Shown: piece after piece, positions 32 through 41,059 of the stretch | Numbering within the stretch: position 1 is the first letter of the stretch | Layout of the letters: each line of letters begins with the position of its first letter | Virus record (IMG/VR): IMGVR_UViG_3300044707_001188 | Coordinates: 1 to 53,362 of that record | Length of the DNA: 53,362 nucleotides | DNA from: a virus | Reading direction: 5' to 3' (one strand) | Program-made: the position numbers and the translations under genes | Notes under the pieces: model-generated | The model's database searches: none | What the model saw: only the letters and a program-made list of their open reading frames with translations | Told to the model about the DNA's origin: nothing

Positions 32-3000
32 TCAGTTTGACAGATTCAAAGCTTGCAACCTCCCTGTCACCCCCCGATTCAACCCCTCCATCACCCTCGC
101 GATCTCCGCGTCGATCCCCCTCACCCGTTCCTGATACCCCTCCTCCTGCCGCAGCTGCACCTCCCGCCGCATCCTGCGCAGCCGGCTCACCGCCGCCTCG
201 GCCTTGTTGCCCTCGGCCACCATGTCCGCCAGCGGCTCACCGCGCCGGTAGGCCTCGACGTCCTCTCGGTTCTTCGCCCTGCCCTGCAGTTCGTTTTCGA
301 TCTGGTTCAGGCGCTTGACGTTCTCGTAGAACGCCTCCGACTGGCCTGAGATGCCGCGCGTGTTGCCGTACAGGCGCCCCAGCAGCGGGATCTTGTGCGG
401 CGGCAGTTCGTCGCCCGTGTAGGGTGCTGACACGGTCTGCGCAAGCTTGCCGATCTCCCGGCCGATGCCGCCGGTCAACTGGCCGATGACATAGTCGATC
501 TGGTCGGGCGTGGGGCTCCACATGCCGGGCTGGTACTTCGTGCCGCCGGTGATCCAGTTGGTGAGCTCGCTCGCGGCCTTGGCCCAGGGGGTGGCGGAGT
601 CCTTGGCCATCGCGGTGCCGGGCTGCGGGTCTAGCGGGTTCATGGTCTCGCGGTAGATGGGCCGGCCGGTCCAGTCCCGGTTCTGCCAGAGCGCCACAGC
701 CGGGTCGGCCACGGTGGGCGTGACCATCTGCGAGAAGGTCTGCGAGCCGCCGAGCGGGTTGAAGGCGTCCAGCATCACCTGCAGCAGTCGGCCGATCTGC
801 CGGCCGGCGGTCTTGTCCGGCCCGCCGAGCATGAACTCGACTGCCAGGCGCCCGACGTTGGGCAGGAAGTGGAAGCCCAGCGGCAGCGGGATGGACAGGT
901 AGTCCTCGCGGCCCAGCGGCACGATCAGGCTGCGCTCCTTGACGAACTCGGGAATCTTGTCCCAGTGATCGTCGCCGTCGTCGTCGCCACCCATCACCGC
1001 CATGCCGATGAGTGCGTTGACGGCGCCGAGCAGCACGCCGCCGAGCATGATCTTGCGCCCCATCGGCCCGCGCAGCGTCTCCCACATCCTGACCGTGCCC
1101 TGGATCGCCGCGTTGAAGAAGGCGTAGAAGGCGCCGATCTCGCGGGTCTGGCGGCCCTTGCGGTTGAAGTTGACGGTGAGGTTCTTGGCCAGGCTCGCCG
1201 CGCGCTCGGTGCTCATGCCCTGGTCGAGCGCGACCTTGAAGGCCGACACCCGCACGGCGTTCTCCATCGCCTCGTTGTAGTCGCTCAGCCAGTCGAGGAC
1301 GTAGTGGACGGTCTTGCCCGCTGCGCCCCGGTCCAGGCGGCCGAGTTCCTTCTCCAACTCGCGGGTGCGGTCCTCGATGTTGGCGTACAGGTCACGGTAG
1401 CCGGTGGAGCCTCCGGCTTCCTGCAACTGTTTCCACAGATCGATCCACTGCCGGTTGGCGGGGTTGGCGGCTTGCTTGCCGCGCTCCTGGCGGTAGATGG
1501 CACGCAGCGCCGGAAAGACGCCAGAGGCGACCTCGCGCTCGCGCCCGGCCAGCGCCGTGGTGCTGAGGTTCAGCAGCCCGGACTGGGCGTCCCGGGCAAA
1601 GTTGATGACGCCGAAGACCGGGTTGTACTGGGTGTTGACGCTGGCGAACCAGCGCGTGCCCTTGGCCACCAGCGTGACGGCGGCGTGCAGGTCGCCGATG
1701 TCCAGGTTCTTCAGCGAGTGCGCCAGCCGCAGCGCCTGGGGGTTGCGCTCGTTGAAGGTGATCGCCACGTCCTGCCCGGCGATGCGCAGCATCAGGACGT
1801 AGGGCAGGTTGCGGTAGTTCGGATCGGCCACCTTTCTGACGGTGCGCGTGAAGGGGTCGACCACCTTGATGACGGGCAACTCGTCCACCCGCCACAGGTC
1901 CGGGTCGGGGTTCTGCGCGGCCATGACGTAGAGCTTCTTCAGCACCAGGTCTTTCTCGCCCCTGGTGAGCGCGGCCTCGCGCTGCATGGCGATGTGGCCG
2001 AGGATATGGGTCACGCGCTCGTTGCTGCCCACGCGCTGACGCGCCGCTGGCCCCTTGACGTTGAAGCCCATCCCAGTGGGGTGCGCCACCGAGTCCGGGT
2101 GCGCCTCGTCCCGGTGCAGCGGCACGTAGTAGCGGTAGGCCCGGCGCCAGGCATCCAGCACCGAGCGCTCCATCAGACCGTAGTGCTCCAGCAGCTCGAG
2201 CGTGCGCGCGTTGACCGCATCGACCCTGGCCGCCAGCGCGTCCATGTCGGCCAGCCGCGGCGGCGTGAGCGCGGCGATCACGGCAGCCGCCTCGGCATCG
2301 GACATCCCCGACAGCGACAACCTCTCCTCTTCCGTGCCCCGGAAGGCCTGCGCACGGCGCCAGACCGACTGCGTCTCGCGCGCGGCGTCCAACGCCTCGT
2401 TCAGCGCCCGGGTCGAGGTGCCCCGAGCCACCGCCGACTGCAGCCGCAGCTCCAGCGCCTTGACATCGGCATTGGCCTGGGCGCGCCGAGCGTCGAGCTC
2501 GACCTGGCTGGGGTTGCGCCGGGCCATCTCGGCATTGGCCTCGGCGGCGTGCCGGGCGTGGAGGTAGCGCTCGAAGTCCTCCATCGTCACCCCGCGCTCA
2601 CGCATCTCGGCCAGCAGCGGACGCAACTCGTCGTCCAGGAACACCTGCGTGCGCCGCGCCAGGCGCTTGTGGAACAGCTCCTCGCCGAGGTAGGCGTCGT
2701 TCAGATCCGAGATCGCCCCGCCGAGTGCCTGGATGCGGGCGCGGATGCGCTTGAGGTCGACGAACTTGTCCTGGAACTCGTAGATCAACTTGTCCAGCGC
2801 CTCGGGGCTCGTAAGGGCAATGACACGCTGCTTGAGCGCCTGCCAGCGGCTGCGCTGGGCGGGGCCGGGCTGAGGCGGCGGGTTCGGGCCGGCGGCGTTG
2901 GGCTGCGAAGGCGGCGGCGGGGCGAGGTTCTCCAGCAGCACGGGGCGCCCGTCTGACGCACGGCGCACCGGTGCCACCTTGCTCGCGTTCGCGCGCTCGC

Positions 3001-6000
3001 GCTGGATGCGCGCCAGCTGCCGGGCCCGCAAACCGTAGACGGCCGCGAAGGCGTCCTGCGCGGCGTCCAGCACCACGCTGTCGGGCAAGTTCGGCTCCAT
3101 GCCCCCGTGGCGCCAGGCGTAATCGTCAACCATCCCGCGGATGAAGTCCGCCTGCTCCGGCGGCATCATGCCACCGTAGGGGCTGCGTGCGTCCGTCATC
3201 TCGCGCCAGACGTTGGCCAGGTCGCGCACGATGTCGGCCTCGCTGTCGCCGGCCTCCCCGTCCTGCAGCTTGTGCAGCAGCAGCGGGTTCAGCAGGTCGG
3301 CGCGGGTCATCTGGTCTTCCTCCAGCTCGGCGAAGCTGGACTCCAGCGCGTCCATCAGGGTCTCGAGCCGGGCGTCCAGGCGCTCGGCCATGCTCGCGCT
3401 GCGCGGTCCGGCCTCGTAGGCTTTTTCGACACGGGGAATGAGTTCGCGGATCTCAGCCTCGATCTGGGCCGGGGTCATGCGGTTGACGTCGGGCTCGGCG
3501 TCGGCACCGCGCCGGGCGGGTGCGGGGTTCTCCAGAACCGGGGACGGACCCGCATCAGGCGCAGATGCAGCGCGCTTGACCTCCTCCAGTTCTGCGCCCA
3601 GCCGCAGCTCATTGGTCAGAAATTTCTCGTTGCTCGCGACCAAGCCTGGCGCGCGCCCTTGCTGGACGTCCCGCCGCTCCTGTTCCTGCGACCAGGCCAT
3701 GAGGCCCTCGACCAGCACGGTCTTGCTCAACTCACCAATGACCGACGCATTGACCAACAGCGGCTCGCCGTCGCTGCCAATGCCGACCACGTCACCCGTC
3801 ACCAAGTAAGCACCCTTGGCGTGGCGGAAGCCCAGATAGTCGATGTAGTTGCTGATGCCGCCGCCAAGGTTGGCCGGATGGTCCTGCGGCAGGTCTTCAA
3901 ATGGTTGGTAGTAACCCAAGGCGTCCGGACTCTCCACGAGCTGCACCACCGACAAGCCCATCTCGCGCCGCCCATCGACCCAGTTCTTTGAGCGGCGGCC
4001 GCGCACGTCGCCCTCGATGTCTCGCGCAAAACGCAGGTACACCGGCCGGCCTCCCACACCCTCGCGCAACACGCGCTGCAGCCGCGCCATCGTCGTGATG
4101 TCGCTGGCCTTGCGGTTGTCCAGGATGCCCGACACCCCCTCGAACAACATCTGCCTGGACTGGAAGCTGCCGTCGTTGTCGGCGCCGACGACGTACTCCA
4201 TTGCCCGCAGCACCGCCGCATCGGCACGCGCACCGAGCAGTCCCTTGATGCGCTCGACCATCTCGCGCATCCACACCATGATCCGGCGCCACATCGCATC
4301 CGACGCGGCGTAGCGCCGGTGCAGCAGACGGGTGGCGTTGACCGCCCAGAACTCGCTGGGGTTGACCAGTTGGTAGTGGGGGTCGTACTTCAGCACCCCC
4401 TTGGCGAAGGCGCTCTTCAGGGCGTCGCGGGCACTGCGGTCGCCGGCCATGGCGGGCAGGATGTGGTCGAGCGCCTGGCGCTGCTCGGAGGTCGCGTTCT
4501 TGTACCCCGCCGCCAGTGCCTTGGCCCACTCCGCCCGGATGCGCCCTTGCATCGGCGCGGGCATCATGCGCTCGGCGTGGTGCAGGATTTCGTGCACTGC
4601 CGTGCCGCGCAGGGCATCGCCCTTGAACAGGCGCATGACGCGGGTGGTGGGGTTGTAGTCCCCCGATGGCGTGTCCTCGCCCGGGGATTCGATCGAGATG
4701 CCCAGGTCAGCCGCCAGCGCCGGGTTGCGGTCCAGCGCCCACAGTGCGAACGCCACGTCGTCCGGGTCCAGGTCACCGCGCCGGCGGGCCTGCAGCAGAC
4801 GCTCGCGCACCAGATCGGCGCCGCGCTTCCGGCTGCGCCCGAAGACCCGCTTGTGGCGCTTGGCCTGCGCCGCCGCGTCCAGCTCGGCGGTCAGCATCCG
4901 CACCGCCAGGATGTACTGCTCGTCGTCGATCTCGCCCTTGGCCAGGCGCTCGGCCAGCTTGGACAAGCGGCGCGCGGCCTGGATCCTCGGCACCTCAGCC
5001 TCGCCGTCGTCGGGCGCGAAGTCCTCCTCCAGCGCCTTCCTGGCGCTGCGCCGCGTCACGCCGGCAGCCTCATGGCGCCCGGGGTTCATCGGCGCGAGGT
5101 TGGACAGGGTTCCCCCGACCGACCCGGAGGGCTGCGTTCCACGCTCGGCCATCGAGGACCGCGTGACCGGGTCGATCACGTCAAGCAGCCGCAGGTCAAG
5201 TCTGGCCAGGGCGTTGGCCATGTTCTGCGCCGCGCGTTCGGCACGCGCTACTTCCACCTTGCTGCCGCCCTGCACCGGGATCGACAGCAAATAGGCGGCA
5301 GAGCCCGAGAAGGCTCCGGAGTTCAGCAGGCGATCCAGCCGACCCTCCTTGGTCAGCGACAGCATCTCTTCCTGGATCATCGGCACCCAGGCCGTGACGC
5401 GGTGGCTGTGGCTGACGAACACGATCCCCGGCTGGCCTCCGGCGAGGTTCTGCACCACGTCCTTGGCCCTGCTGGGCGTGTCGATGACCACATTGGCACT
5501 GTCCACACGCCGGATCAGGCGGTCGACCACTGGGATGCGCGCCACCGTCTTCCCCGGGCGGACCTTCCCACTGACGAAGTTGGCGCCGTCGCCCTCCACC
5601 GCGCGCCAGTCGCCACCATTGGCCACCGCAGCCATGCCGGTCCAGCGGATCGACGTGTCGCGGAAGACCGATGCCACCGCCTGGTTCAGATACTCGTCGG
5701 CCCGCGACAACTCGGCACTGCCGCTCGGATGGTTGTGCACGCCCCAGGCCGTGGCCGCGCCCTTGATGCGCAGCGCCTCTGCCAGGATGGTGGTGGGGTA
5801 CACCGCCGTCTGCGCGATGGCGCCCTTGAAGGAGCCCACCACCGCCAGCGGCTTGCCCGCCATGTTGGTGATGAGCACGTCCATGTGCTCGACGGCGTAA
5901 TCGCCGATGGCCTGCAGCGCGTCCACCGCGTCCTGCCAGGTTTTCACGCTTGCGACCGGCAGGTCGCGCACGTTCACTTGGACGAGTTGGTCGTTGACTT

Positions 6001-9000
6001 GGTAGACGCCGGGCAGCGTCGGGTTGGACCGCACCGATAGGGTGGCGGTGGGGAGTACGTCCCCAGCGGAGGTGGCTTGCCCGGCTCGGGAACGTAGATC
6101 ACCTCCTCGGGCACGGGGTAGCGCCCGTCCGGCAACAGGCTGCAGGTCCTGCTGGGTTTCTGGGAAGAGGTCATAGCTGAGATCGTAATTCGAGACCGGA
6201 TCGTTGACGTTGTAGACACCGCTCTCCTCTCGCGCAAGGTTTGCGTCGCCGTCCGCCTTCCCAGTCTTCAATGGCGGCAACCCCAGCACCTCGCGCGCGA
6301 CGTCGGGGTGCGAGACAGGGATCAGCTTGCCGTCGGCCCGAACCTGCAGCAGATGCTCGACCGCGCGCCGTAGCGTGGCCTCGTTCAGGTTGCGCACCGA
6401 CATCACATCGCCGCGCTTGTAGAAGTCCTGCCTGAGCGCGTCGATCAGCCTCTGGTCCAGGTAATAGGTGCCGCCCTCGCGCTTGGCCGCCGCAACAGAG
6501 ATGCTGTAGGTGGGCGCACCCTCCCCGTGCGAACGCAGGATGCGCAGCGTCCCGGCCGCGTTCCTCACCGTCGCCCCACCGCCGGCCCGCTCGAAGAACT
6601 GCATCAGCTTGACCGGCGCCGTGAAGACCACGGCATCCGCAGCCGCCTGCTGCTTGACCTTCTCGAAGTCGTAGCCCCGGCGCATCAGCACGCCCTGCTG
6701 CACGCGCCCGTCGTCGGTGGTGTAGCTGACGATCTGCCCGGGGAACTTCGCGAACCCGGCCAGCAGGTTGCCGGTGACCATCCAGCGCTGCTCGCGCCGC
6801 ACGTTGCCACTGCCGCCGCTGTACAGGTCGAACAGCTCCGGGATGCTGTAGTAGCGGGCGGTGTCCGTCTTGGGGTCCAGGGCCGCCACCGGCTCGACCT
6901 GCTTGCGCAAGGTGACGCTGCGCCCGAGTTGGCTCACGCTCAGCGTGAGCGACCGCGCATCCCCGTTGGCCAGCGCCAGCGTGATCTTCCACGACGAGCC
7001 CGCCGCCGGGTTCTTGGTCGTGCCGGTATTCGCAATCGAGGTGATGATCCCGTAGGTGGGCACCTGCATCGAGTCGAGCACCGTCACCTGGTCGCCGACC
7101 CCGTAGTTGCGCAGCGTCTCCTCGACCAGGTTCTTCTGCATCCCGACCGTGTCGACCTGCCGCTGGATCTTCAGCGGGTCGGTGTCGGCGGCCTCCAGCT
7201 TCGCGCGCAGCGCCTGCACATAGATCGCGGTACGGGCGCTCAGGTCCCGGATCATGTCGACGCGCATCTTCAGCGCAGTCTGTCCGCCCAGGCTCTGCGC
7301 GATGGCCGCCTCGACCTCGGCGCTGGACATGGGCTTGACCGTGCGCGCCACGTCCACCTTCTCCATGTGCGCCGGCTCGGCGAACCGGGAGCCGGCATCG
7401 CCTTCGCGCTGTGCCGTCACCTGCTCGCTCGACAGCGTCTTCGCACCCAGGTTCAGCGCCTTGGCCTCCAGCTTGTTCGTGCCCATCGCGTCCTCGCGCG
7501 CGATCAGATCGTTGTAGCGCTGGGTCAGGTCGGCATAGATCTCCTCCTGCTGCTTGATGGGCAGGATGGGGATGTAGCCGGTGAGCTTGCGGATCAGCTC
7601 GTCGTCGGCTTCCTCGACCTTGTCGGGCACCTCCAGCCGGTCCTGCCCTCCGAGTTCGGCGTGGACATCGGGGTTGTCCATCAGGAACTCGGCTGCGACC
7701 TGGCCGCCGTAGTCGTTCATGAAGTCGACCACGCCCTCGGCCGTCACCGCCGACTTACGGCTGGCGGTGGTGTTGGCGTTCAGCGAGGCCATCTTCTTCA
7801 TCAGCACCGCCGCTGGCCGCATCTCGGCCGGGATGTCGGCCATGGCCTGCGTGTAGTCGGGCGTGATCACCTGCCCGGTGCGGTGCACGCGGCCGAGCAT
7901 CTGCATGTGGGTGTCGATGTTGCGCTCGGCCTGCACGATGATCATGCGGCGCTTGCGCTGGTCCTTGACCTTGGCCGATGCGTGCAGCGACAGGCCCGTC
8001 GAGCCCGACTGGTTCAGGATCAGCGCGTCGACCTCGCCGCCGTTGAAGCCCCGAATGGCCCGCAGGCGCTGGCGGATGTTGGCCGTGCGGTTGGCCAGCA
8101 CCGGCGAGGGGCCGGCGTAGTTCACCGTGATGTTGCGCCCGGTGATCTCGTCGGTCTTGAAGCCCGCCTCGCGCAGGCGGTTGTGCATGAAGTCGATGGG
8201 CGAGATGGGCGCGGCCCCGAAGCCCGCGTTGCCGATGAATTCGGCCGTGCGGTTGAACATCTTGACGAGCGACTCGCCGAGTTGCTCATCGGTCAGTCGG
8301 GACTGCTCCGGCGGCGCGCCCCCAGGGCGCTTGATCGTGATGACGCGCTGCTTTTCCAGGTAGCGCAGGTACAGGTCCCGGAAGCTCAGCGCCACCGGCT
8401 CGCCCGGGCGAAGGTCCATCTCCTTGGCGTAGTCCGCCAGGAACGAGCCCATCGTATTGGCCACGGTGAGCACCACCTTCTCGCCCGCCTTCAGCCGCTC
8501 GATGGCGAAGTCCACCGAGTCCTGCGCCTTCAGCGCAAGAAGCATCTGGTCGATCAGGTTGTGCATGATCGCGCCGAAGTTCGCGCCCTGCACCGTCGCC
8601 TTCTCGGTGCCCTTCTCGGTGATGACGGCGCCTTCCTTGTCCAGTTCTTTCTTGATGGCCTCGACCGCCGCTTCCTTGGCGCGCGAGAAGGCGAGCACCA
8701 TGCGCATGGCGGTGGCCATGTTCTCGGCCGTGGCCTTGTCGACCGTGGTCGCCCGGGTCTCGTATCCCACGCCTGCGAAGGTGCGCTCGCGCCGGATGTA
8801 CTGGCCGTCCTCGGAGAGCATCGTGGCCACGATCTGCTGCAGCGGCACGCCCCCGGTCTGGATAGCCGGCGCGAGCTGGGTGGGCTTCTCCACAGCGAGC
8901 ATCATGTTCGTGCTGCTGTACAAGTCCATCACGTCGGGGCGCTTGGCGTAGGTGGCCGAGCTGAAGAAGCTGCCCGCCGAGTTGCGCACCAGCACGCGGG

Positions 9001-12000
9001 CAAAGCCGGCGCGGCCGAGCTTGTCCTCGCCCTGCTTCAGGGCCTCGCGCTGCTCCTTCGTGCGCGCCTGCGTCGTGGAGGTACCGCCGGCGTTGTGGCT
9101 TTCGTCGAAGATGACGTAGCCGCCGTCAGCGAAAGCCTGCAGGAATCGCATCCGGGCCGTGGTCTTGCCCGCTACCGTCTGGATCTGGCTGTAGGTCGTG
9201 AAGATGACCTTGAAGCGCCCCAGGCTGCCCTCGCCGACCATGCCGTCCATCAGCTTGTTCAGCTCCGGCCCACTGGCTGGCGGGCGCAGCACGAGTTCGA
9301 GTTCGACCCGATCGCCGTTGCGCTCGCGCTGCAGCGTGTAGTCGATCGACTCCTTGCTGTTGGTCATCAGGATGCCCGGGCGCTGCGTGGACAGCCCCAG
9401 TTCCTCGGCCATGCCGATGTCGTCGAGGTCGCGGATCATGTCCGCGTACAGGTTGGGCTTCTCGGTGACGAAGATCGGCACCTTGCCGCTGCGCAGCGCG
9501 TAGCGGATCATCCCGGCCACCACGCGGCCCTTGCCGATGCCGGTCTGGTCCCCGATGATGAAGCCGCGCCCCTGCTCGGCGTTGTAGATCGCCAGCGCCA
9601 GCGCGTCGACCTGCTCGGCCGAGAAGTAGCCGGCGAGTTCAAGCGGGTCGTACTCGAGCTTCTGGGCGACGAAGGCGTCGAGATCGCCCACCGCCGCCTG
9701 CACGCGCTCCAGCGACTTCTGCACCGAATCGCGCATCGCGCGCGGCACCAGCGTGCCCACTGACGGCGCGCTGGAACCCGGCGTGTAGGCCACCTGTCCG
9801 GCGGTCTCCTGCTCCTGGCCGCGGCGGTCGCTCAGTCCAGGCTTGACGAGCTGGTCTCGGCCAGGGCCATCTCCAGCCACGCCTCCAGATCGGTTTCCTC
9901 CAGCGCCTCCCGGACGGCCTCCATCCGCACCGTCGGGCGAGCGGGCACCTTGGCCGGGAACGGATTGATCCGACTGTTCATCTGAAGAGACAGCACCGTC
10001 TGCAGATGCAGGTTGTGGCTGAACAGGCTGCCGCCCGCCTCGTATGCCCTCACGACTCCCATCACGCCCATCGCCGACAGCGCCCGATTGGCCATCCGCA
10101 GGCCTTGCGGATGTTGATCCACCATTCGGTTGATCCGGTCCTCCACGGCGTCCATCCACGCCCACTGCGTCAGTTCGCCCGGGGGCACCATCACCCCGCA
10201 CAGACCCGCCTGGACGTTCGGGGGACACCACGGCACCAGAACCCGACGCTGCTCCTGGGGCGTTGACGGCGGCGTTTGCATCCAGCTTCTCCTTCAGGGC
10301 CGGCCACGAGTCGAAGCGCACCGGCAGTTGGGCGGCGGGCAAGGGTCGAGTGGCCTTGCCACCACGGCCCGCGATCACGATCACGTCCACGGGGTAGCCG
10401 GCGCCCTGGCGCGCGTACAGATCGCCGTCGACCGTGAAGTGGTCGACGACCTGGTAGTCGTTGTACAGGCGGAAGTAGAACTCCCGCTTGGCTTTGGCAC
10501 GGTAGCCGTCACGGATCTCGTCCTCGGCGCGGGCATCCACCCCGCCGACGATCAGCACGGCGCGGCCGTCGTCCTTGAGTGATTCGAGGGCCTTCATCGC
10601 GATGGCGTGGTCGACCTCCCGCGTCGCGAAGAACGGCGCGGCGGCCCACACGGTAGGCTCGCCCTTGTCATCGCGCACCACCCCGAAAGGCGGGTTCATC
10701 ACCGCCACATCCAGGGACTTCGGCGGGGCCAGCGCAGAAGTGGCCGCGTCGTTGCGCTGCACCTCGAAGCCCAGGGCGCGAGCGTTATCGGCGCGCTCGG
10801 CGTTCAGCTCGTTGACGACGGCATCCTTTGGGGCGACCTCGATCAGCAGCATCGTGTTGCCGGCCGTGGGCTCGCCCACCTTGTCGCCGGGCTTGATGCC
10901 CGCCAGGCGCGAGGCCAGGAAGGCCAGCGGCACCGGCGTCGAGTAGGCCTGCTCGCGCACGCTGGTGGACGAGCGCATGCCCAGCACCGGCTGCAGGCCG
11001 TACAGGTTGACCAGGCGGTCGTAGATGACACCATCGGTGCGCCCCTGGCGCCGTGCAGCGGCCACGATCTCGCGCCCGGCCAGCACGACGGCAACTTCCA
11101 CCGTCTCGTCGGCCCGCTTGGCAGCCTGTGTGCCGGGCTCCACGGGCTGACCGGTCAGCTCAGCGATGAACTTGCGGGCCTCGACGATGGTCTTGAAGCC
11201 CTCGCCGCCGAGTAAGCGGTCGGCGAGGGCCTGGGCCGTGGCGCGGCGGCCGGAGGCGGTGGTGAGGGATGGGCGTTCGGCAGCGTTCTGGGTGGTTTGC
11301 AGTTCTGGAGCGGTGTTGTCGGTTTGCGCGTTCCGCTTGTTTTGCGCGTCTTGCGCGATTGCCGCGTCCACGTCGATGTCCTCGACGTCGGCTGCGCGGT
11401 CCATGTCCGCTTTGAACGACGCTGCGCGAGGGTCGTTGCGCACCGCCAAGTACCACGACACCAGGTAGGGTTTGACGGCCTCACCCAGGTCGTCGACCAT
11501 CGCCCGCGCATAGGCAGCAAACCGGCGCGCACCGCGCTCGATGTGATACCCCGCCAGCGTGATGCCATCCAGCAGCGTCTCGGGGTCGATGCCCGACTGC
11601 AGGCGACCGAGCTTCTTGCGTAGGCGCTCGCGCGCCGCCTGGGCCGCATCCTCGGTGAAGATGGTGTTCGGCTTGGCAGCCGCAGTGGCGTCAGACGGTG
11701 CGGCGGGGGTGGAGGAATCGACCGGCGCCCCAGGCGTCTGCCCGGGCGCGCCAGCCGACGGGGTCAGTACCCCGGTTTCGGGGGCTTCTTGCCCTTGCCC
11801 TTCTTCATCATTGGTCGCTCCTTGGCGGGTTGCGGGCGCGCTTGCCGGGGCGCTCGATGCCGGGGTTTGGCGCCTCTGAGCGGCCGGGGGCTTACCGCCA
11901 AGTCGGTAGAAGCCCACCGCCGTGTCGACGATGTCCTGTGCGGTGCGGAAGTCCAGATCGGCTTGGCGCTGCTCGTCGCTCTGCATCAGCAGACGGTGCA

Positions 12001-14851
12001 GGGCCTGGCCTTGGGGCGTGATGCTGCTGTTGTCAGCCAGACCACGGTGCCGCAGGGCGTCCCGCAGGGCTGGGTTCTTGACGCCTTCCAGACCCCGATC
12101 CATCGCATCGGTGAGCCCGCCGACAACTTCATCCGGTCCGAACCGCAGTTGTCCTGGGGTCGGCTCGGGACGGGTCGCAGCGGGTGGAATCGCCGCAGGC
12201 GCTACCCCGCCAGTAGCCGTTTGTGCGCCGGCACCGGCGTTGGCCAGTGGGCCTGCGCCACCTGCAGCAGTTGGTGGCCTGCCCGTGTTGTCGATGGGTC
12301 CTTGTCCTGGCTGCCCTGGCGCACCAGCAGCGCCCCGAGGATCGCCGCTGCCATCGGACTGTCCTGCGCCCTGGGGCTGGGCGGGTGGGGTGTTGGCTTG
12401 TCCATCCGGGGTGATCTCCTTCGTCAACTCCGTGAGCACGTCCGACGGCGCAGGCGTGTCGCCGAACAGGCCTCCGCCCTGACCCGCCTGGCTGACGAGC
12501 CGGGTGTATTCCTCCAGCAGGCTGACCACGCGGTCGCGGCCCAGCGGGCGGGTGAGGAACTCGCCGCCATAGAACAGGCGCAGCGCGCTCAGCATCAGCG
12601 GATCCGGCGTCTGGCCGGTGGTCAGATCCACCTGTCGCGACAGGTCGTGCAGGCTGCGCCGGTCCTGACGAGCGCGGCGGATCATCCGCACGGCGTCCAC
12701 CACCGCGGGGGTGATGTCGGCCGAGGGCTCGACCGTGCCCGCGCGCACCGAGTCCCGCAGGTTGGCCCAAGCCCCTGCCGACAGCTTCAGCGCCTCGCCG
12801 ATGGTCTTGATGTCGGTGTCGGTGGACTCGAACATCTCCGAGATCAAGTCGGGGTCGCCGTAGGCGGCTTGCGCCATTGCGGCCTGGATGCGCGACCGCC
12901 CAGTGGGCGACAGGAAGCCCTCGCCGGTCATCAGGTTGGCAATGTCCTGCCCGGCGCCGTGCAACTTCCCGACGAAGGCGCGTACGAAGTCGCGGTTGTC
13001 CCGGGAGGCGACATCGCCGCCCTGCCACATCGCCAGAACGCTGGAATCGATGAGCCGGGCGTCCTGGCGCGCCAGCTCGGCCGGCGACATCCCCAGCCCC
13101 TGCCCTTGCGACAGCGCCGCCATGTTGGCGACGTTGCTCGCATCGGCATACAGCCGCACGAGCACCGGGTTCGCCGTCGAGCGGATCACGGCAGGGTCCA
13201 CCCCGTGCTGTGGCGCATCACGCTCGAGTTCGGCCTGATAGTTCGCTGCGGTCCCCGCCTCGTAGGCGCGGCGCAGGCCGGCCGTGCGCCCGTTGTTCAA
13301 GGCCTTGAGGGTGCCTGGAGCGGCATTGCCGAAGGCCGGGTTCACCGACCCGTCGGCAAAGTTGCTGGGCTGCAGAGCGTTCGCATCGACCACCGCGTAG
13401 CGGAAGGGCACACGCCGACCGTCGGCCATCACGGCCACGTCCTCGCGGCCCAGGGCCGATGGGGGAACGAGCGAGGTGTCGTCCCCCACCGCGAACACCA
13501 TCGGCGCACCGGCGTCGGGAGAGCGACTGGGACCCAGGCGCAGATAGTCGGGGTTGGCCGCGATCGACTGCATCTGCGCGATGGAGGCTGCGCGCGTGCG
13601 GTCGCGGTTCTGGGCGTCGAGTTCGGTGTCGGCGGGCGCCGAAGTGCCGGGCCCTGTGGGCGTCACACCCAAGGGCAGGATGCTCGCCTCATCCGACGGC
13701 ACCCCGAGCTGCTGCGAGAGACGCGCGCGCAGCGCCTGCTCCTGCGGCGTCAGCGCCCGGGTCTGAGCCAGAACGTCCAGTTCGGCCAAGCGGACCAGCG
13801 GATCGGGTGCCGGGGTCCGTGGCGTTGATGCGGGCGTCGGCGTGGAAGGCGGCGTTGGCGAGGAAGGCTGCACAGGCGCAGGCTGACCCAGGCCGGCATT
13901 CGCATAGTCCAGGGCCCCACCGACAGCCCCGCCCGGTGCAGCCAACGCCCCTTCGAGCACCGCCGAGCCCGCCACACCCCGATAGGCCGGCGTCGGGAAT
14001 CCCGCACGGTCGGTGGCGACGTTGGCGGCGTACTGCTCCTGCCCGCCTTGGGCCGCCTCCAGCGGCACCTCGCGCGCCACGCCTGCGAGCACCGAGCCCG
14101 TAAACGGCACAACACCTCGCTGGGCCGTCGATGCGGCCACGCTCTGCGCAGCCTCACGGCCGAGCACACGCGCAATGGCGCCTTCGACACCGGTGACAGA
14201 GGCTGCGCCGCCAAGCGCAGCGCCGCCGGCGATCAGCCCGGGGTTCTCAGCGTAGCTCTGGGCCTGGGTGGCGATGGAACGCGCATCGGCCTCAGAACGG
14301 CCTTCCTGACGCGCCCGCTCGTAGACCTGGTCGTAGATCGCCGACTTGACGACCCCCGTCCCCTGCACTGCGCCTACGCCGCCGAGCACCCCGAGACGGG
14401 CGCCCCAGGAAGCTTCACGCACGCCTGGGAGGAGTGAGGCCGCGATAACGGGCGCGCCGGTGGCCACCGCGCCGAGTCCCATGCGCACCGGGGCGATGCC
14501 GGCCGCGCGCAGGGCTTGCATGGCCTGCTCGCCAACACCCTTGTCCTCGGCGTCGCGCATGATTCGCGCAACTTCTTCGTCCTCGTACTGGGCGCGAAGG
14601 CTCTGCAGGCCCTTGACGGCCTGGTCGGCCACCCGCAGGCCACCGGAGACCGCGTTGTCCGCGCCGGCCACGTCGGTGATGAAGCGCAGGCCCTTGATCC
14701 CCCCGCTGACCACTTCGAGGCCCAGGTCCCCGGCGCTGCGCAGCACACCCGGGTTGGCGGACTCCGGGATGACCGGCTTGATCCCGAGTTCGTCGAAGAG
14801 GTTTCGCGCCATGAGCAAGCCGCCAGCCGCCGAGTTGAGACCGGCGTCCAA
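32..14851 (-). CDS. Giant polyvalent virion protein (ParB/DdrB-like, N6-MTase, SBNO helicase, JAMM, zincin, LPD38-like)
   Basis: A single uninterrupted frame of 4939 codons. Domains in order, positions approximate: DdrB-like ParB fold with NNGRTAGLRRAYEAG (470-640); N6-adenine methyltransferase with SAM loop GEPTAGN (about 1324) and NPPF (1386); strawberry-notch type SF2 helicase with GIGKGR (about 1771), DESH (about 1916) and QMLGRVHRTGQ (about 2316); RadC-like JAMM motif HNHPSG (about 3039); zincin HEILHH (about 3420); LPD38-like tail with a hydrophobic segment near 4600. Gly/Pro/Ala/Gln-rich linkers separate the blocks. Polyvalent proteins and P1 DarB/DdrB are known to be packaged and injected to protect phage DNA; this role is inferred here from domains and from position at the end of the virion genes. 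The start is uncertain: TTG at 14851, or ATG at 14812 giving MARNLFDELG; neither has a strong ribosome site. LPD38 and ParB assignments are from memory of family sequence. Confidence 0.9.
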   Translation of the reverse strand: MDAGLNSAAGGLLMARNLFDELGIKPVIPESANPGVLRSAGDLGLEVVSGGIKGLRFITDVAGADNAVSGGLRVADQAVKGLQSLRAQYEDEEVARIMRDAEDKGVGEQAMQALRAAGIAPVRMGLGAVATGAPVIAASLLPGVREASWGARLGVLGGVGAVQGTGVVKSAIYDQVYERARQEGRSEADARSIATQAQSYAENPGLIAGGAALGGAASVTGVEGAIARVLGREAAQSVAASTAQRGVVPFTGSVLAGVAREVPLEAAQGGQEQYAANVATDRAGFPTPAYRGVAGSAVLEGALAAPGGAVGGALDYANAGLGQPAPVQPSSPTPPSTPTPASTPRTPAPDPLVRLAELDVLAQTRALTPQEQALRARLSQQLGVPSDEASILPLGVTPTGPGTSAPADTELDAQNRDRTRAASIAQMQSIAANPDYLRLGPSRSPDAGAPMVFAVGDDTSLVPPSALGREDVAVMADGRRVPFRYAVVDANALQPSNFADGSVNPAFGNAAPGTLKALNNGRTAGLRRAYEAGTAANYQAELERDAPQHGVDPAVIRSTANPVLVRLYADASNVANMAALSQGQGLGMSPAELARQDARLIDSSVLAMWQGGDVASRDNRDFVRAFVGKLHGAGQDIANLMTGEGFLSPTGRSRIQAAMAQAAYGDPDLISEMFESTDTDIKTIGEALKLSAGAWANLRDSVRAGTVEPSADITPAVVDAVRMIRRARQDRRSLHDLSRQVDLTTGQTPDPLMLSALRLFYGGEFLTRPLGRDRVVSLLEEYTRLVSQAGQGGGLFGDTPAPSDVLTELTKEITPDGQANTPPAQPQGAGQSDGSGDPRGAAGAPGQPGQGPIDNTGRPPTAAGGAGPLANAGAGAQTATGGVAPAAIPPAATRPEPTPGQLRFGPDEVVGGLTDAMDRGLEGVKNPALRDALRHRGLADNSSITPQGQALHRLLMQSDEQRQADLDFRTAQDIVDTAVGFYRLGGKPPAAQRRQTPASSAPASAPATRQGATNDEEGQGQEAPETGVLTPSAGAPGQTPGAPVDSSTPAAPSDATAAAKPNTIFTEDAAQAARERLRKKLGRLQSGIDPETLLDGITLAGYHIERGARRFAAYARAMVDDLGEAVKPYLVSWYLAVRNDPRAASFKADMDRAADVEDIDVDAAIAQDAQNKRNAQTDNTAPELQTTQNAAERPSLTTASGRRATAQALADRLLGGEGFKTIVEARKFIAELTGQPVEPGTQAAKRADETVEVAVVLAGREIVAAARRQGRTDGVIYDRLVNLYGLQPVLGMRSSTSVREQAYSTPVPLAFLASRLAGIKPGDKVGEPTAGNTMLLIEVAPKDAVVNELNAERADNARALGFEVQRNDAATSALAPPKSLDVAVMNPPFGVVRDDKGEPTVWAAAPFFATREVDHAIAMKALESLKDDGRAVLIVGGVDARAEDEIRDGYRAKAKREFYFRLYNDYQVVDHFTVDGDLYARQGAGYPVDVIVIAGRGGKATRPLPAAQLPVRFDSWPALKEKLDANAAVNAPGAASGSGAVVSPERPGGSVRGDGAPGRTDAVGVDGRRGGPDQPNGGSTSARPADGQSGAVGDGRDGSREGIRGGRQPVQPQPASADGAVSSDEQSDQSVPGQGARSPDGADGGRPGGAGGNRSGGVAGDGPGRDQLVKPGLSDRRGQEQETAGQVAYTPGSSAPSVGTLVPRAMRDSVQKSLERVQAAVGDLDAFVAQKLEYDPLELAGYFSAEQVDALALAIYNAEQGRGFIIGDQTGIGKGRVVAGMIRYALRSGKVPIFVTEKPNLYADMIRDLDDIGMAEELGLSTQRPGILMTNSKESIDYTLQRERNGDRVELELVLRPPASGPELNKLMDGMVGEGSLGRFKVIFTTYSQIQTVAGKTTARMRFLQAFADGGYVIFDESHNAGGTSTTQARTKEQREALKQGEDKLGRAGFARVLVRNSAGSFFSSATYAKRPDVMDLYSSTNMMLAVEKPTQLAPAIQTGGVPLQQIVATMLSEDGQYIRRERTFAGVGYETRATTVDKATAENMATAMRMVLAFSRAKEAAVEAIKKELDKEGAVITEKGTEKATVQGANFGAIMHNLIDQMLLALKAQDSVDFAIERLKAGEKVVLTVANTMGSFLADYAKEMDLRPGEPVALSFRDLYLRYLEKQRVITIKRPGGAPPEQSRLTDEQLGESLVKMFNRTAEFIGNAGFGAAPISPIDFMHNRLREAGFKTDEITGRNITVNYAGPSPVLANRTANIRQRLRAIRGFNGGEVDALILNQSGSTGLSLHASAKVKDQRKRRMIIVQAERNIDTHMQMLGRVHRTGQVITPDYTQAMADIPAEMRPAAVLMKKMASLNANTTASRKSAVTAEGVVDFMNDYGGQVAAEFLMDNPDVHAELGGQDRLEVPDKVEEADDELIRKLTGYIPILPIKQQEEIYADLTQRYNDLIAREDAMGTNKLEAKALNLGAKTLSSEQVTAQREGDAGSRFAEPAHMEKVDVARTVKPMSSAEVEAAIAQSLGGQTALKMRVDMIRDLSARTAIYVQALRAKLEAADTDPLKIQRQVDTVGMQKNLVEETLRNYGVGDQVTVLDSMQVPTYGIITSIANTGTTKNPAAGSSWKITLALANGDARSLTLSVSQLGRSVTLRKQVEPVAALDPKTDTARYYSIPELFDLYSGGSGNVRREQRWMVTGNLLAGFAKFPGQIVSYTTDDGRVQQGVLMRRGYDFEKVKQQAAADAVVFTAPVKLMQFFERAGGGATVRNAAGTLRILRSHGEGAPTYSISVAAAKREGGTYYLDQRLIDALRQDFYKRGDVMSVRNLNEATLRRAVEHLLQVRADGKLIPVSHPDVAREVLGLPPLKTGKADGDANLAREESGVYNVNDPVSNYDLSYDLFPETQQDLQPVAGRALPRARGGDLRSRAGQATSAGDVLPTATLSVRSNPTLPGVYQVNDQLVQVNVRDLPVASVKTWQDAVDALQAIGDYAVEHMDVLITNMAGKPLAVVGSFKGAIAQTAVYPTTILAEALRIKGAATAWGVHNHPSGSAELSRADEYLNQAVASVFRDTSIRWTGMAAVANGGDWRAVEGDGANFVSGKVRPGKTVARIPVVDRLIRRVDSANVVIDTPSRAKDVVQNLAGGQPGIVFVSHSHRVTAWVPMIQEEMLSLTKEGRLDRLLNSGAFSGSAAYLLSIPVQGGSKVEVARAERAAQNMANALARLDLRLLDVIDPVTRSSMAERGTQPSGSVGGTLSNLAPMNPGRHEAAGVTRRSARKALEEDFAPDDGEAEVPRIQAARRLSKLAERLAKGEIDDEQYILAVRMLTAELDAAAQAKRHKRVFGRSRKRGADLVRERLLQARRRGDLDPDDVAFALWALDRNPALAADLGISIESPGEDTPSGDYNPTTRVMRLFKGDALRGTAVHEILHHAERMMPAPMQGRIRAEWAKALAAGYKNATSEQRQALDHILPAMAGDRSARDALKSAFAKGVLKYDPHYQLVNPSEFWAVNATRLLHRRYAASDAMWRRIMVWMREMVERIKGLLGARADAAVLRAMEYVVGADNDGSFQSRQMLFEGVSGILDNRKASDITTMARLQRVLREGVGGRPVYLRFARDIEGDVRGRRSKNWVDGRREMGLSVVQLVESPDALGYYQPFEDLPQDHPANLGGGISNYIDYLGFRHAKGAYLVTGDVVGIGSDGEPLLVNASVIGELSKTVLVEGLMAWSQEQERRDVQQGRAPGLVASNEKFLTNELRLGAELEEVKRAASAPDAGPSPVLENPAPARRGADAEPDVNRMTPAQIEAEIRELIPRVEKAYEAGPRSASMAERLDARLETLMDALESSFAELEEDQMTRADLLNPLLLHKLQDGEAGDSEADIVRDLANVWREMTDARSPYGGMMPPEQADFIRGMVDDYAWRHGGMEPNLPDSVVLDAAQDAFAAVYGLRARQLARIQRERANASKVAPVRRASDGRPVLLENLAPPPPSQPNAAGPNPPPQPGPAQRSRWQALKQRVIALTSPEALDKLIYEFQDKFVDLKRIRARIQALGGAISDLNDAYLGEELFHKRLARRTQVFLDDELRPLLAEMRERGVTMEDFERYLHARHAAEANAEMARRNPSQVELDARRAQANADVKALELRLQSAVARGTSTRALNEALDAARETQSVWRRAQAFRGTEEERLSLSGMSDAEAAAVIAALTPPRLADMDALAARVDAVNARTLELLEHYGLMERSVLDAWRRAYRYYVPLHRDEAHPDSVAHPTGMGFNVKGPAARQRVGSNERVTHILGHIAMQREAALTRGEKDLVLKKLYVMAAQNPDPDLWRVDELPVIKVVDPFTRTVRKVADPNYRNLPYVLMLRIAGQDVAITFNERNPQALRLAHSLKNLDIGDLHAAVTLVAKGTRWFASVNTQYNPVFGVINFARDAQSGLLNLSTTALAGREREVASGVFPALRAIYRQERGKQAANPANRQWIDLWKQLQEAGGSTGYRDLYANIEDRTRELEKELGRLDRGAAGKTVHYVLDWLSDYNEAMENAVRVSAFKVALDQGMSTERAASLAKNLTVNFNRKGRQTREIGAFYAFFNAAIQGTVRMWETLRGPMGRKIMLGGVLLGAVNALIGMAVMGGDDDGDDHWDKIPEFVKERSLIVPLGREDYLSIPLPLGFHFLPNVGRLAVEFMLGGPDKTAGRQIGRLLQVMLDAFNPLGGSQTFSQMVTPTVADPAVALWQNRDWTGRPIYRETMNPLDPQPGTAMAKDSATPWAKAASELTNWITGGTKYQPGMWSPTPDQIDYVIGQLTGGIGREIGKLAQTVSAPYTGDELPPHKIPLLGRLYGNTRGISGQSEAFYENVKRLNQIENELQGRAKNREDVEAYRRGEPLADMVAEGNKAEAAVSRLRRMRREVQLRQEEGYQERVRGIDAEIARVMEGLNRGVTGRLQALNLSN
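9832..10281 (-). CDS. Candidate overprinted gene nested in the MTase-helicase linker of the giant gene
   Basis: 149 codons in a different frame from the giant gene, overlapping its linker at residues about 1524-1673. AAGGAG stands 7 nt upstream of the ATG. In two stretches counted by hand (20 and 42 codons) about 90% of third positions are G or C, against 50-55% when the same DNA is read in the giant frame. The peptide has a normal mixture of residues, including MEAVREALEETDLEAWLEM and MANRALSAMGV, whereas the giant frame reads as Gly/Arg/Asp low-complexity sequence. The C-terminal third looks helical and acidic. I recognise no family. It could be a regulator or partner of the MTase-helicase, or the relic of a separate gene that once stood between two genes later fused. 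There is no experimental sign of expression. Confidence 0.6.
   Translation of the reverse strand: MQTPPSTPQEQRRVLVPWCPPNVQAGLCGVMVPPGELTQWAWMDAVEDRINRMVDQHPQGLRMANRALSAMGVMGVVRAYEAGGSLFSHNLHLQTVLSLQMNSRINPFPAKVPARPTVRMEAVREALEETDLEAWLEMALAETSSSSLD
12202..12405 (-). CDS. Possible second nested small ORF in another linker of the giant gene
   Basis: 67 codons in the same alternative frame as the 149-codon nested ORF, lying in a Pro/Gly/Gln-rich linker (giant residues about 816-884). AAGGAG stands 10 nt upstream of the ATG. By hand count about 84% of third positions are G or C, against about 54% in the giant frame. The peptide is Pro-, Ala- and Gln-rich and resembles no family I know. The bias is weaker evidence here, because Gly/Ala/Pro codons automatically give GC-rich third positions in a shifted frame, and the AAGGAG also encodes Lys-Glu in the giant frame. 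Could be chance. Confidence 0.25.
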   Translation of the reverse strand: MDKPTPHPPSPRAQDSPMAAAILGALLVRQGSQDKDPSTTRAGHQLLQVAQAHWPTPVPAHKRLLAG

Positions 14852-14881: not shown

Positions 14882-17389
14882 TCAGCGGCGCGGCGGTGGC
14901 GCGTCGGTGACGCGCGGCGGGTTGGCGATACGGATACCCCCGTCGCGCTGATTCAGAACGACCAGACCGGCCCGCCTGACGGCTTCGACGAATCGCCCGA
15001 AGGCCTCCTCGGGCGGCTCTTCGGATTGCGCGGTGACAGTGATCTTGCTGCTGACATCGTCATCCACCTTGATCTGCCGGCCGGTGGCGGCGGCCACCGC
15101 TCGCGCAACGGCAGCAGTGGGCGCGTCCTTGAAGGACATGCGGATGGGCGCGGCAGGTGGTGCGACGGGCTGCGCGGACGAGGTAACAGCGGGGGAATCC
15201 GACGCCGATGGCGCGACAGAGCGCACGCCGGTGCTTGCCAAAGCCGCAGCGGACGGTGCCGTGACTGCGGGCGCCGCGGAGGCCGGCGAAGCGGCTGCCT
15301 GCGGCGATACCGGTACGCCAGGCGCCGGTGCAGAGTTCGACACGATTGGCGCAACTGGAGGTTGTGTGGTGGGCGCCCGAACTGACGCTTCTCGCCGCGA
15401 GTGCGCCTCGATGGAGGCGGGCGCAGGCGGGGCTGCAACCGTAACCGCGCCGCCTGCAGCGGCTGAAGTTGGCGCGGCAGCAGGAACCGGCCGCGCCGGA
15501 ATCCTCGGCGGCCCGAGGTCGATCCCAGGCGCAATGGCGCCGGGTGGCGGCGCCGCAGACGTGGCGGGTGCCACAGGAGCGGGCGCTGCGACTGGCGCAG
15601 CCGCCGGCGCGCCGGCGCCCTGCTTCTCCCGCGCGTCGTTGGCATAGACCACGGCCTGCAACTGGTCCACCGTCATGTTCATGCGCCCGGCGAGCTGCTC
15701 CATGACCTGATCCATCGGCAGCTTGGCACTCCGAGCAGTCTCCTCCAAGGCCCGGGTGGTCACCGTCGGAAGGAACGCGTTCACTTTGCTGGAATCGACG
15801 CCAGAGGTGCCGCCGCGCGCCGCAGTGCCAGCCGCAACCGGCGCAGAGCCCGGCGCCTCGATGGTGGCTGGCGCACCCACCTTGCCGTCCGGGGCCACGG
15901 GCGTGATCAGGACGCGGCCGTCCCGCAGGCGCTGCGTCACGGTGCCACCGCCGCCCAGCGGGTTGGGCGTGAAGGTCGATTCGACTTTGGGCTCCGAGGG
16001 GACCACCTGGATCACGCCCAGCCGCGCGGCGTTGATCTGGGCCGCCGACGCGTTCGGGTTGAGCTGCCTGAAGAGGGCTTCCCGCGCGTCCTGCTCGGCC
16101 TTGGTGGCGACGCCACGGGCGTCGGCCGCTGCCTCTGCTCGCCTGTCGTCGCGCGCGAGGTTGGCGACATAGGCGTCGTCTCGCCGCACGTTGGAGGCGT
16201 TCGCAGCGCCCTGGTTGTTGGCCGTCATCACTGCGCGCGCCTGCTCGTTCTCGGCCTTGATCACCTCAGCCAGCGTCTTGTTGACCCCCGCGATCATCTT
16301 GAAGGCGCGGTCGGGGTTGGTCTGCAGCAGCTGGCCCGCCGCCCAGAGTTCGGCCTGGTCGGCGCGGGACAGGCGCAGGAACAGAGCCCGCTTGTCCGGC
16401 TGCACGATGGAGGCCTGCCGGATGCCGGTCTTCGGGTCCGCATCGCCTATCGTGATGCCCGGCGAGCCGGCGTTGAGCAGCTCGATGGACTTGTCGACCT
16501 GGGCCTGCGCGCCGTCGTAGCCCTTGCGGAAGTCGTTGACGACGTCGTCGATAACCTGCTCCTGGCCTTTCTCGAACAGGTTCTGGAACTGCCCACGGTC
16601 GCCGCGCAGCCTGGCCGACTCCGCCATGCGGAACAGGTTCATCGCCTTGTCGGAGTAGCGCGGGCCGGCGGCAGGCTTCGCCGGCTCAGGGGCAGCAGCA
16701 GGCGCAGGGTTGCCCGGCGAGACAGGGCTTGCCACTTGCGGGGAACCGGGTGCGGCTATCGCCGGCGGCACTGCGGACGGGCTGGAGGTGGAAGGTGTCG
16801 CCTCTGCTGGTCTGGAGCCTTCCGGCCGGAAGAACCCGACATCGCCCTCAGCCACTGCCACCGCACGCCCGACGCCCACGGGATCGACCGCGCGCTGCAG
16901 CCGGCCCATTGCGGTGCCCTGGGTCCACAGGTACTGCAGACCACGCGTGATCGCGCTGGCCCGAGGGTTCTCTCGGTACCACTGGGCCTGCTGCTCGGGG
17001 GTCATCTGCTCCCAGTCGGTGGGCGCCGCGCCGGCTGCGGTCGTAGAACCAGGCACCTCTGCCGCGGTGGCGAGCGGCACCGCAGATACCGCTGGCATCG
17101 CAGGCCCTGTCGATACGACGGCCGGTCGTGGCGCAGCAGCCGCCTGAGGTGCGGACTGCAACGGCCCGGGGTCGATGCCCACCCCGCGCACGATCTCGGC
17201 GTCAATGGCATCCGCACGGCGGTTGTTCTCAGCGCGACGCTCGGCTTCGGCGACGCCCAATTCGAGCTGGCGCAGGCGGAGCTTGCGCTCCTCTTCCTCG
17301 CGCTTGACCCGATCCTCCCGCTCCTTGCGGTCGAGGGCTGCCTGGGCAGCGGACGAGCCGATCTGGAATCCCGTCTGGAACGCGCCCAT
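14882..17389 (-). CDS. Internal virion protein with C-terminal secretin-N/STN-like domain
   Basis: 835 residues. The N-terminus is followed by a charged coiled-coil-like stretch (residues about 20-65, Glu/Arg/Lys-rich). Long Ala/Pro-rich linkers then flank a helical middle region. The last 80 residues (MSFKDAP, VDDDVSSKITVT, then RDGGIRIA) have the pattern of the short N-domain of secretins and TonB receptors (STN: a phase with FKDAP, a TG-x-I-x-V-D core and a closing G-x-x-I). The ATG lies three bases beyond the stop of the S74 protein, so translation is probably coupled. Position between a tail-associated gene and the giant polyvalent gene suggests an ejected inner-virion protein. The middle matches nothing I can name; the STN call is by pattern only. 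Confidence 0.75.
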   Translation of the reverse strand: MGAFQTGFQIGSSAAQAALDRKEREDRVKREEEERKLRLRQLELGVAEAERRAENNRRADAIDAEIVRGVGIDPGPLQSAPQAAAAPRPAVVSTGPAMPAVSAVPLATAAEVPGSTTAAGAAPTDWEQMTPEQQAQWYRENPRASAITRGLQYLWTQGTAMGRLQRAVDPVGVGRAVAVAEGDVGFFRPEGSRPAEATPSTSSPSAVPPAIAAPGSPQVASPVSPGNPAPAAAPEPAKPAAGPRYSDKAMNLFRMAESARLRGDRGQFQNLFEKGQEQVIDDVVNDFRKGYDGAQAQVDKSIELLNAGSPGITIGDADPKTGIRQASIVQPDKRALFLRLSRADQAELWAAGQLLQTNPDRAFKMIAGVNKTLAEVIKAENEQARAVMTANNQGAANASNVRRDDAYVANLARDDRRAEAAADARGVATKAEQDAREALFRQLNPNASAAQINAARLGVIQVVPSEPKVESTFTPNPLGGGGTVTQRLRDGRVLITPVAPDGKVGAPATIEAPGSAPVAAGTAARGGTSGVDSSKVNAFLPTVTTRALEETARSAKLPMDQVMEQLAGRMNMTVDQLQAVVYANDAREKQGAGAPAAAPVAAPAPVAPATSAAPPPGAIAPGIDLGPPRIPARPVPAAAPTSAAAGGAVTVAAPPAPASIEAHSRREASVRAPTTQPPVAPIVSNSAPAPGVPVSPQAAASPASAAPAVTAPSAAALASTGVRSVAPSASDSPAVTSSAQPVAPPAAPIRMSFKDAPTAAVARAVAAATGRQIKVDDDVSSKITVTAQSEEPPEEAFGRFVEAVRRAGLVVLNQRDGGIRIANPPRVTDAPPPRR

Positions 17390-37340: not shown

Positions 37341-37749
37341 AGGTCGCGCCCTCGCGCTCGATGCGGATGTCCTGCTGCGCCAGCACCTGCCCGTCGGCGC
37401 GCAGCGTCATCGCCCCGACGCTGCCCGGGTAGAACTCGGCCGGCGGGGCCGAGGGCATCTTCACCAGGTCGGGCAGCCCGTCATGGATGATCCCGGCAAC
37501 CCGCACCCAGTTGGCCCGGCTGGGCTCGATGCCCAGCACTTCGCAGGCCGTGACGCACTGGCGGGCCAAGTAGGCGGGGTCGTCGTAGCGCCAGGCTGAC
37601 GAGTCGCAGACGATGTACCAGGGTGCGCCGGGCCGATGGGCAGGCAGCAGCACCATCGCGCGCTCGTCATTGACCCAGGTGAAGACAACCACCAAGTCAC
37701 CGTGCTGGCGAGTCGCGTAAGCCTTGCGAGGATTGAGGGTTGCGGGCAT
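37330..37749 (-). CDS. Conserved small phage protein upstream of the portal
   Basis: 139 residues from ATG 37747-37749. Composition is mixed alpha/beta, with MPATLNPRKAYATRQHGDLVVVF and a Trp-containing centre (VCDSSAWRYDDPAYLA), then AGIIHDGLPDLVKMPSAPPAEF. I do not recognise the family. It overlaps the portal start by 11 bases, indicating coupled translation, and copy 5 of the 11-mer lies 31 bases upstream. In the undisturbed order it would directly follow the terminase gene. Confidence 0.6.
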   Translation of the reverse strand: MPATLNPRKAYATRQHGDLVVVFTWVNDERAMVLLPAHRPGAPWYIVCDSSAWRYDDPAYLARQCVTACEVLGIEPSRANWVRVAGIIHDGLPDLVKMPSAPPAEFYPGSVGAMTLRADGQVLAQQDIRIEREGATYAH

Positions 37750-37779
37750 GATTGAGCGTCGTCGGGAATGTGGCGAGGC

Positions 37780-37790
37780 TGCCATGCTTG
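37780..37790 (-). repeat. CAAGCATGGCA motif, copy 5
   Basis: Exact 11-mer in the short divergent gap between the 139-codon gene and the plus-strand subtilase gene, so it marks the border of the AT-rich insert. Flanked by GCCTCGCC on the right in the coding-strand view. Confidence 0.7.
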
Positions 37791-37819
37791 GGGCGATACA
37801 ACGAGATTTCGGAGCACCT

Positions 37820-41047: not shown

Positions 41048-41059
41048 TCCGCGCTCTGA

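Follow-up and report, generated by a model that had tools for sequence, protein, structure and literature searches.

A giant polyvalent protein of a temperate podovirus with a putative metallopeptidase ahead of a conserved C-terminal LPD38 module: a candidate virion-packaged architecture

Background

Polyvalent proteins were surveyed in 2017 by Iyer et al., who already proposed that metallopeptidases (MPTases) process them, and modification of the entering DNA by a methyltransferase coupled to a translocase was proposed for DarB (PMC5512222). In the census of that study RadC domains were found only in the polyvalent proteins of conjugative elements, and LPD38 and DdrB-type ParB domains only in those of phages, although its section on RadC nonetheless mentions prophages too; RadC-type JAB domains were argued to target nucleic acids and not proteins (PMC5512222). 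Large relatives of 4500-5400 aa are carried by Bcep22-like, Agrobacterium and Bacteroides phages. For one of these giants, gp69 of phage JC1, 51 unique peptides were detected in CsCl-purified virions (PMC9144972); it is 79% identical to the protein of Bcep22, and gp70 of BcepIL02 belongs to the same family.

The present analysis concerns an IMG/VR virus record 53,362 bases long, taken over its full length and referred to hereafter as the window. Sequence comparison places its giant protein in a class that is already known, as a relative of the 'DarB-like' giants of Bcep22-like podoviruses. What appears to be new is the place of a predicted peptidase relative to a fixed C-terminal module, together with the exchange of that peptidase between phages. 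The protein is proposed, with somewhat better than even confidence, to be a virion-packaged polyvalent protein built in the order payload, protease, delivery module.

The giant reading frame

An open frame of 4939 codons, counted from a TTG at 14851, runs on the minus strand from 14851 to 32; the initial annotation had described a single giant frame of this length with the right coordinates and had omitted the strand. The plus strand carries 18 stops over the same stretch. Translation probably begins at the ATG at 14812 (gene 32..14812, minus strand; about 4926 aa), which fits the conservation better than the TTG because homology with L101, a locus in a Rubrivivax bin that holds the closest relative, begins at MARNLFDELG. 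All tested segments of the giant gave dN/dS values of 0.24-0.52, indicative of purifying selection, and the length, the conservation and these ratios exclude a frame open by chance.

A polyvalent protein in the sense of Iyer 2017 combines at least two unrelated catalytic domains, and ParB, methyltransferase, helicase, RadC and metallopeptidase domains are predicted here on one chain, along with the polyvalent-type domains LPD38 (3e-45) and ddrB-ParB (3e-19), both of which exceed the Pfam cut-offs; the giant is classed as polyvalent on these features. The ParB/DdrB-like fold, the N6-adenine methyltransferase with its NPPF motif, the SBNO-type helicase, the RadC-like JAMM motif and the LPD38-like tail, all initially read from the letters, are upheld by the matches given with each domain. 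The features of the giant described below lie on the minus strand.

The C-terminal module and its payloads

The last ~930 aa of the protein (aa 4003-4939; 35..2845; alignment A1) form a conserved module, proposed to serve in delivery, that is common to over 130 proteins of phages and prophages whose payloads differ. It includes an LPD38 domain (aa 4627-4824; 380..973; Pfam PF18857, 2.6e-45) and a hydrophobic segment (aa 4600-4623; 983..1054; hydropathy 2.15), and recurs in 237 viral stretches and at 35 loci of bacterial genomes, the latter chiefly Betaproteobacteria. Among the predicted structures of BFVD the module region was matched full length in many phage proteins, and the payload annotations on these module proteins include RelA/SpoT and lytic transglycosylase. 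Searched against the PDB, the module gave no match by sequence profile or by Foldseek and has no solved homologue there, and its AlphaFold model, built with 14 sequences, is too poor for a claim of fold (pLDDT 66, pTM 0.48); the delivery role is therefore assigned by association.

The payloads ahead of the module include ParB, RadC, ART-PolyVal, InPase, PBECR, MuF-C, glucosaminidase and cytosine methylase, and Pfam recognised 18 families in 19 payloads, the most frequent being ART-PolyVal (9), ddrB-ParB (6), RadC (4) and LPD1 (4). L101, whose module is 84% identical to that of the window, has the order ParB-RadC-peptidase-module with the same peptidase, and is devoid of both the ~2,000-aa methyltransferase-helicase block and an insert, X, that follows the peptidase in the window. 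ParB, the methyltransferase-helicase block (76% DNA identity) and the module are present in L032, which lacks RadC and carries a peptidase differing from that of the window (HEVLGHYG). The joints between the parts fall in Pro/Ala/Gly-rich linkers. In three loci a gene of its own, with an independent start, encodes the module, and a distinct ORF upstream encodes the payload, namely ART in L085, an Eco57I-type methyltransferase with SNF2 in L126 and InPase in L115. These comparisons show that payload and peptidase classes have been exchanged between phages around a constant module.

Split or short versions of the module gene were observed in L069, L085, L100, L113, L115 and L126, and these genes open with a conserved M..C[TR]Y.F.G..G...ITG...FKAFL segment. 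Stop-codon recoding was set aside as an account of the apparent split in L099, whose stops are ordinary TAA and TAG codons.

The peptidase ahead of the module

A putative metallopeptidase occupies aa 3340-3565 (4157..4834), with HEILHHAE at 3420 and PSEFWAVN near 3500. The pattern HExxHxxE, followed about 80 residues on by PSE[FY]WAVN, is invariant in 10 relatives of 20-62% identity; in alignment numbering the conserved residues of HExxH and the third ligand are H, E, H and E148 together with PSE. This conservation of HEILH is good evidence for a metallopeptidase. The region has no match in Pfam and, as a sequence profile, none in the PDB; the AlphaFold model of the peptidase with X is too poor for a claim of fold (pLDDT 57), and Foldseek with this model found no match in the PDB. 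The assignment to a zincin fold thus rests on residue conservation. Of the HExxH zincin in the initial annotation, the motif and its ligands are borne out; of the folds that it had named for profile searches, ParB and JAMM were recovered by Pfam and the zincin was not.

Between the peptidase and the module lies the orphan insert X of ~210 aa (aa 3575-3785; 3497..4129), which has a weak match to DUF6098 over 46 residues; searches of phages, plasmids, the genomes of three related hosts and the fetched loci found no kin of it. Single-sequence scans with the RadC-peptidase part and with X returned no relatives, a limit of the pattern method; kin of the RadC-peptidase part were found by local search of the fetched loci.

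The position of the peptidase was analysed in 91 distinct giants, taking HExxH or HExxxH as the motif and the 600 aa ahead of the module as the zone. The motif occurs 104 times in these giants against 1.85 in shuffled payloads; 84 of the 91 carry it somewhere, 7 lack it, and 69 have it within the zone. Of the 104 motif positions, 75 fall in the zone against 30.6 expected, the corresponding values for control motifs being 6 of 21 for NPPF (4.4 expected), 20 of 111 for Walker-A-like (28.3) and 6 of 56 for NGR (15.4). When the modules were collapsed at 60% identity the count was 21 of 28 against 7.8 expected, a value reached in none of 5000 permutations. The motif is short and one large clade supplies 58 of the 104 occurrences; by peptidase family (17 BLAST clusters) the rule holds for 6 of 17 and is not significant (P = 0.28), because most cases come from that clade. 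On the module tree the class of peptidase at the junction changes at least 24 times, and the class found in the window requires five changes. The two main classes seldom occur together (1/9; Fisher P = 0.002, uncorrected for kinship).

Under the proposed reading, the LPD38 module, that is the last ~930 residues, would bring about packaging of the protein in the capsid and its exit by way of the tail at infection, and the metallopeptidase would free the payload from the module either in the virion or after injection. A less probable reading, which we regard as rather unlikely, takes the module mainly as a part of the ejectosome, spanning the envelope like T7 gp16 or the virion RNA polymerase (vRNAP) of N4, with the enzymes remaining attached and the peptidase directed at envelope-associated or host proteins. 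The podovirus context, with a portal of the P22 type and further internal virion proteins, and the hydrophobic segments close to both ends of the protein agree with such a role, as does N4 vRNAP, which is ejected as a giant and thought to remain in the ejectosome (PMC12633501) and is packaged uncut despite its MPTase (PMC5512222). However, the peptidase lies ahead of the module far above chance and varies in class, a combination better explained by local cutting than by a free effector, and the phages with split genes show that the payload need not be covalently attached. Extended beyond the window, the order payload, protease and module can be put forward tentatively as a widespread phage architecture, in which a delivery module of ~930 aa with LPD38 is directly preceded by a swappable metallopeptidase that would cut off the cargo, with a swappable enzyme cargo at the N-terminus.

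The N-terminal region and the DNA-directed domains

A short motif, MARNLFDELGIKP, stands in single copy at the N-terminus (14762..14812) and is a tandem repeat in many relatives; 33 of 75 giants carry an 8-mer repeat within their first 110 aa, as compared with 4 of 75 internal control slices. Where repeated, the motif is acidic/aromatic, occurs in two or three copies per protein and varies in sequence by phage (examples are DLFEEAGI, NPFDQFD, WWENDPL, KPWERTW, FDPDAYL and LNLSAFE). Bearers of the repeat include L006, L007, L034, L042, L047, L053, L070, L071, L074, L103, L106, L110, L120 and L122. As a packaging tag common to other virion proteins the motif was rejected by recurrence counts: it recurred elsewhere in its own locus, within a different ORF, in only 2 of 36 cases (each of them marginal), against 6 of 169 mismatched controls.

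The motif is followed by a region rich in Gly and Ala (13862..14764), which contains a hydrophobic stretch at aa 124-144 and is homologous in L101, L055/L102, L015 and L081, and by a ddrB-like ParB domain (aa 412-567; 13151..13618; Pfam PF18763, 3e-19) that also matches P1 DdrB and whose residues N520 and R522 are invariant across 37 sequences. A conserved segment of ~100 aa (aa 1060-1160; 11372..11674), present in the giants of BcepIL02 and Agrobacterium phages, precedes the predicted N6-adenine methyltransferase (aa 1270-1500; 10352..11044; NPPF at 1386-1389). PHROG profiles of DNA methyltransferases match the latter at 6e-5 (PHROG 6263), Pfam N6_Mtase is marginal (0.088), and the motifs TP, EPxxG and NPPFG are invariant in the relatives. 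The Strawberry-notch (SBNO)-type SF2 helicase/translocase (aa 1744-2458; 7478..9622) is recognised by Pfam AAA_34 and Helicase_C_4 at about 2e-20, and its motifs I, II and VI (GDxTGxGKGR, DExH, QxxGRxxRxxQ) are likewise invariant.

The RadC-like JAB/JAMM domain (aa 2963-3069; 5645..5965) is supported by Pfam RadC (5e-12, aa 2970-3069), NCBIfam (2.5e-10) and PDB entry 2qlc (0.0035), and all five JAMM residues, E2988, H3039, H3041, S3049 and D3052 (E..HNHPSG..S..D), are invariant in 8 sequences. By analogy with its family it more probably acts on nucleic acids than on proteins; of the two potential proteases initially suggested, the metallopeptidase is retained on its conserved motif, and RadC as a protease is doubtful (PMC5512222). 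RadC, LPD38 and ddrB-ParB on one phage chain depart from the 2017 census. The combination of RadC with LPD38 is not unique, since ten other giants of the set carry a JAMM motif and the LPD38 module in one chain.

The N-terminal payload formed by these domains would act on the incoming DNA. Judging from their families, the ParB-like part may be a nuclease or NTPase and the RadC-like part may process nucleic acids, and the adenine methyltransferase and SBNO-type translocase may track along the DNA as it enters, protecting it from restriction by methylation.

The ParB domain is homologous to P1 DdrB, the methyltransferase-helicase pair is arranged as in DarB, and kin are labelled 'DarB-like antirestriction' in public records. 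It is nevertheless improbable that the protein is a fused P1 Dar antirestriction system with protection against type I restriction as its sole role. The methyltransferase and helicase are not detectably related to P1 DarB, nothing corresponding to RadC or to the C-terminal module was found in the six P1 Dar proteins compared, L101 combines ParB, RadC, peptidase and module but has no methyltransferase-helicase block, and many kin have ART, InPase or PBECR instead. The merger of P1 Dar proteins claimed in the initial annotation is not sustained, the ParB part alone showing detectable homology to any P1 protein, namely DdrB.

Genome and gene neighbourhood

The gene content points to a temperate podovirus, and the host is probably a betaproteobacterium. 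The window encodes a P22-like portal, a Phage_capsid_3 major capsid protein and the terminase large subunit; an internal virion protein (PHROG 511), a lysozyme and a spanin; and a Cas4-like exonuclease, a Sak4-like annealing protein, a primase and an integrase (52127-53362), the last being the basis for the temperate lifestyle. The giant gene is the final gene of the late block on the minus strand, 32 bases short of the end of the record, and shares its strand with the capsid, portal and internal virion protein genes, as is typical of the late-gene context of polyvalent proteins. Immediately upstream lies a gene for an 835-aa protein (14882..17389, minus strand), rich in Pro and Ala, with a C-terminal GspD-N0-like domain (2e-8) that is also found in the corresponding ORF of L101; the two genes share 74% DNA identity, and the protein has no real similarity to BcepIL02 gp69.

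Elsewhere in the window, a 1543-aa protein (24971-29602) consists mostly of Ala, Ser, Gly and Val; it contains repeated segments and matches no family. A 1107-aa open frame on the plus strand (37724-41047) has a very weak PHROG match, and in its region, from about 37881 to 41060, no ORF of at least 80 aa is listed for the late block, which otherwise lies on the minus strand.

By analogy with its relatives, the giant is most likely packaged and co-injected, because the module and a junction peptidase are found in BcepIL02, JC1 gp69 is present in virions and the gene belongs to the late block. That the protein is instead made in the lysogen against superinfecting phages is highly improbable, for although the phage is temperate, kin occur in bacterial genomes and Iyer 2017 considered such a use possible (PMC5512222), the gene stands at the end of the late structural block on the same strand and the JC1 homologue was detected in virions (PMC9144972).

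Giant proteins of the polyvalent kind were discovered years ago, and with one reusable module and one peptidase position the questions of their virion carrier and of the role of the peptidase become testable by means of fusions and point mutants. If the payload-protease-module proposal is true, it would describe an equivalent in phages of the delivery of polymorphic toxins, new cargo being joined on by flexible linkers and entering the cell with the DNA; a portable module would offer a route for sending enzymes into bacteria along with phage DNA.

Comparison with known systems

The window protein shares with the polyvalent proteins of Iyer 2017 (PMC5512222) the combination of unrelated catalytic domains, an MPTase, LPD38, ddrB-ParB and the late-gene context. 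It resembles P1 DdrB in the ddrB-ParB domain (26.5% identity; BLAST 1e-19, profile 1e-52), next to which DdrB has a HExxH motif of its own (HELGHH at 872); however, DdrB is a protein of 995 aa without methyltransferase, helicase, RadC or LPD38 module. P1 DarB likewise joins an adenine methyltransferase and an SF2 helicase in one virion protein, but its helicase is of the SNF2 type, whereas that of the window is of the Strawberry-notch type, and profiles of the methyltransferase and helicase of the window do not match DarB.

The N4 virion RNA polymerase and T7 gp16 are large or giant internal podovirus proteins, ejected with the DNA as is proposed for the giant of the window; the module of the window differs in having no sequence match to any solved structure. 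Gp3 of Bacteroides phage BS-TP4 (5391 aa), whose gene adjoins the portal gene, has a methyltransferase-helicase part 29-31% identical and the same C-terminal module, but no match for ParB, RadC or the HEILH-class peptidase.

The Bcep22-like podoviruses (Lessievirus; BcepIL02 gp70, JC1 gp69) encode giants of 4515-4680 aa with a methyltransferase motif. An N-terminal lytic transglycosylase is found in the giants of CSP3 and Bcep22 and, by Pfam, not in the window protein, which in turn has ddrB-ParB, the SBNO helicase, RadC and a different class of peptidase; identity in the module is only ~27%. The giant gene is placed after the virion genes in these phages as in the window, and BcepIL02 gp70 has the module at 3783-4648 (profile 2e-97) with a junction peptidase motif, HEAFH, ahead of it at 3631.
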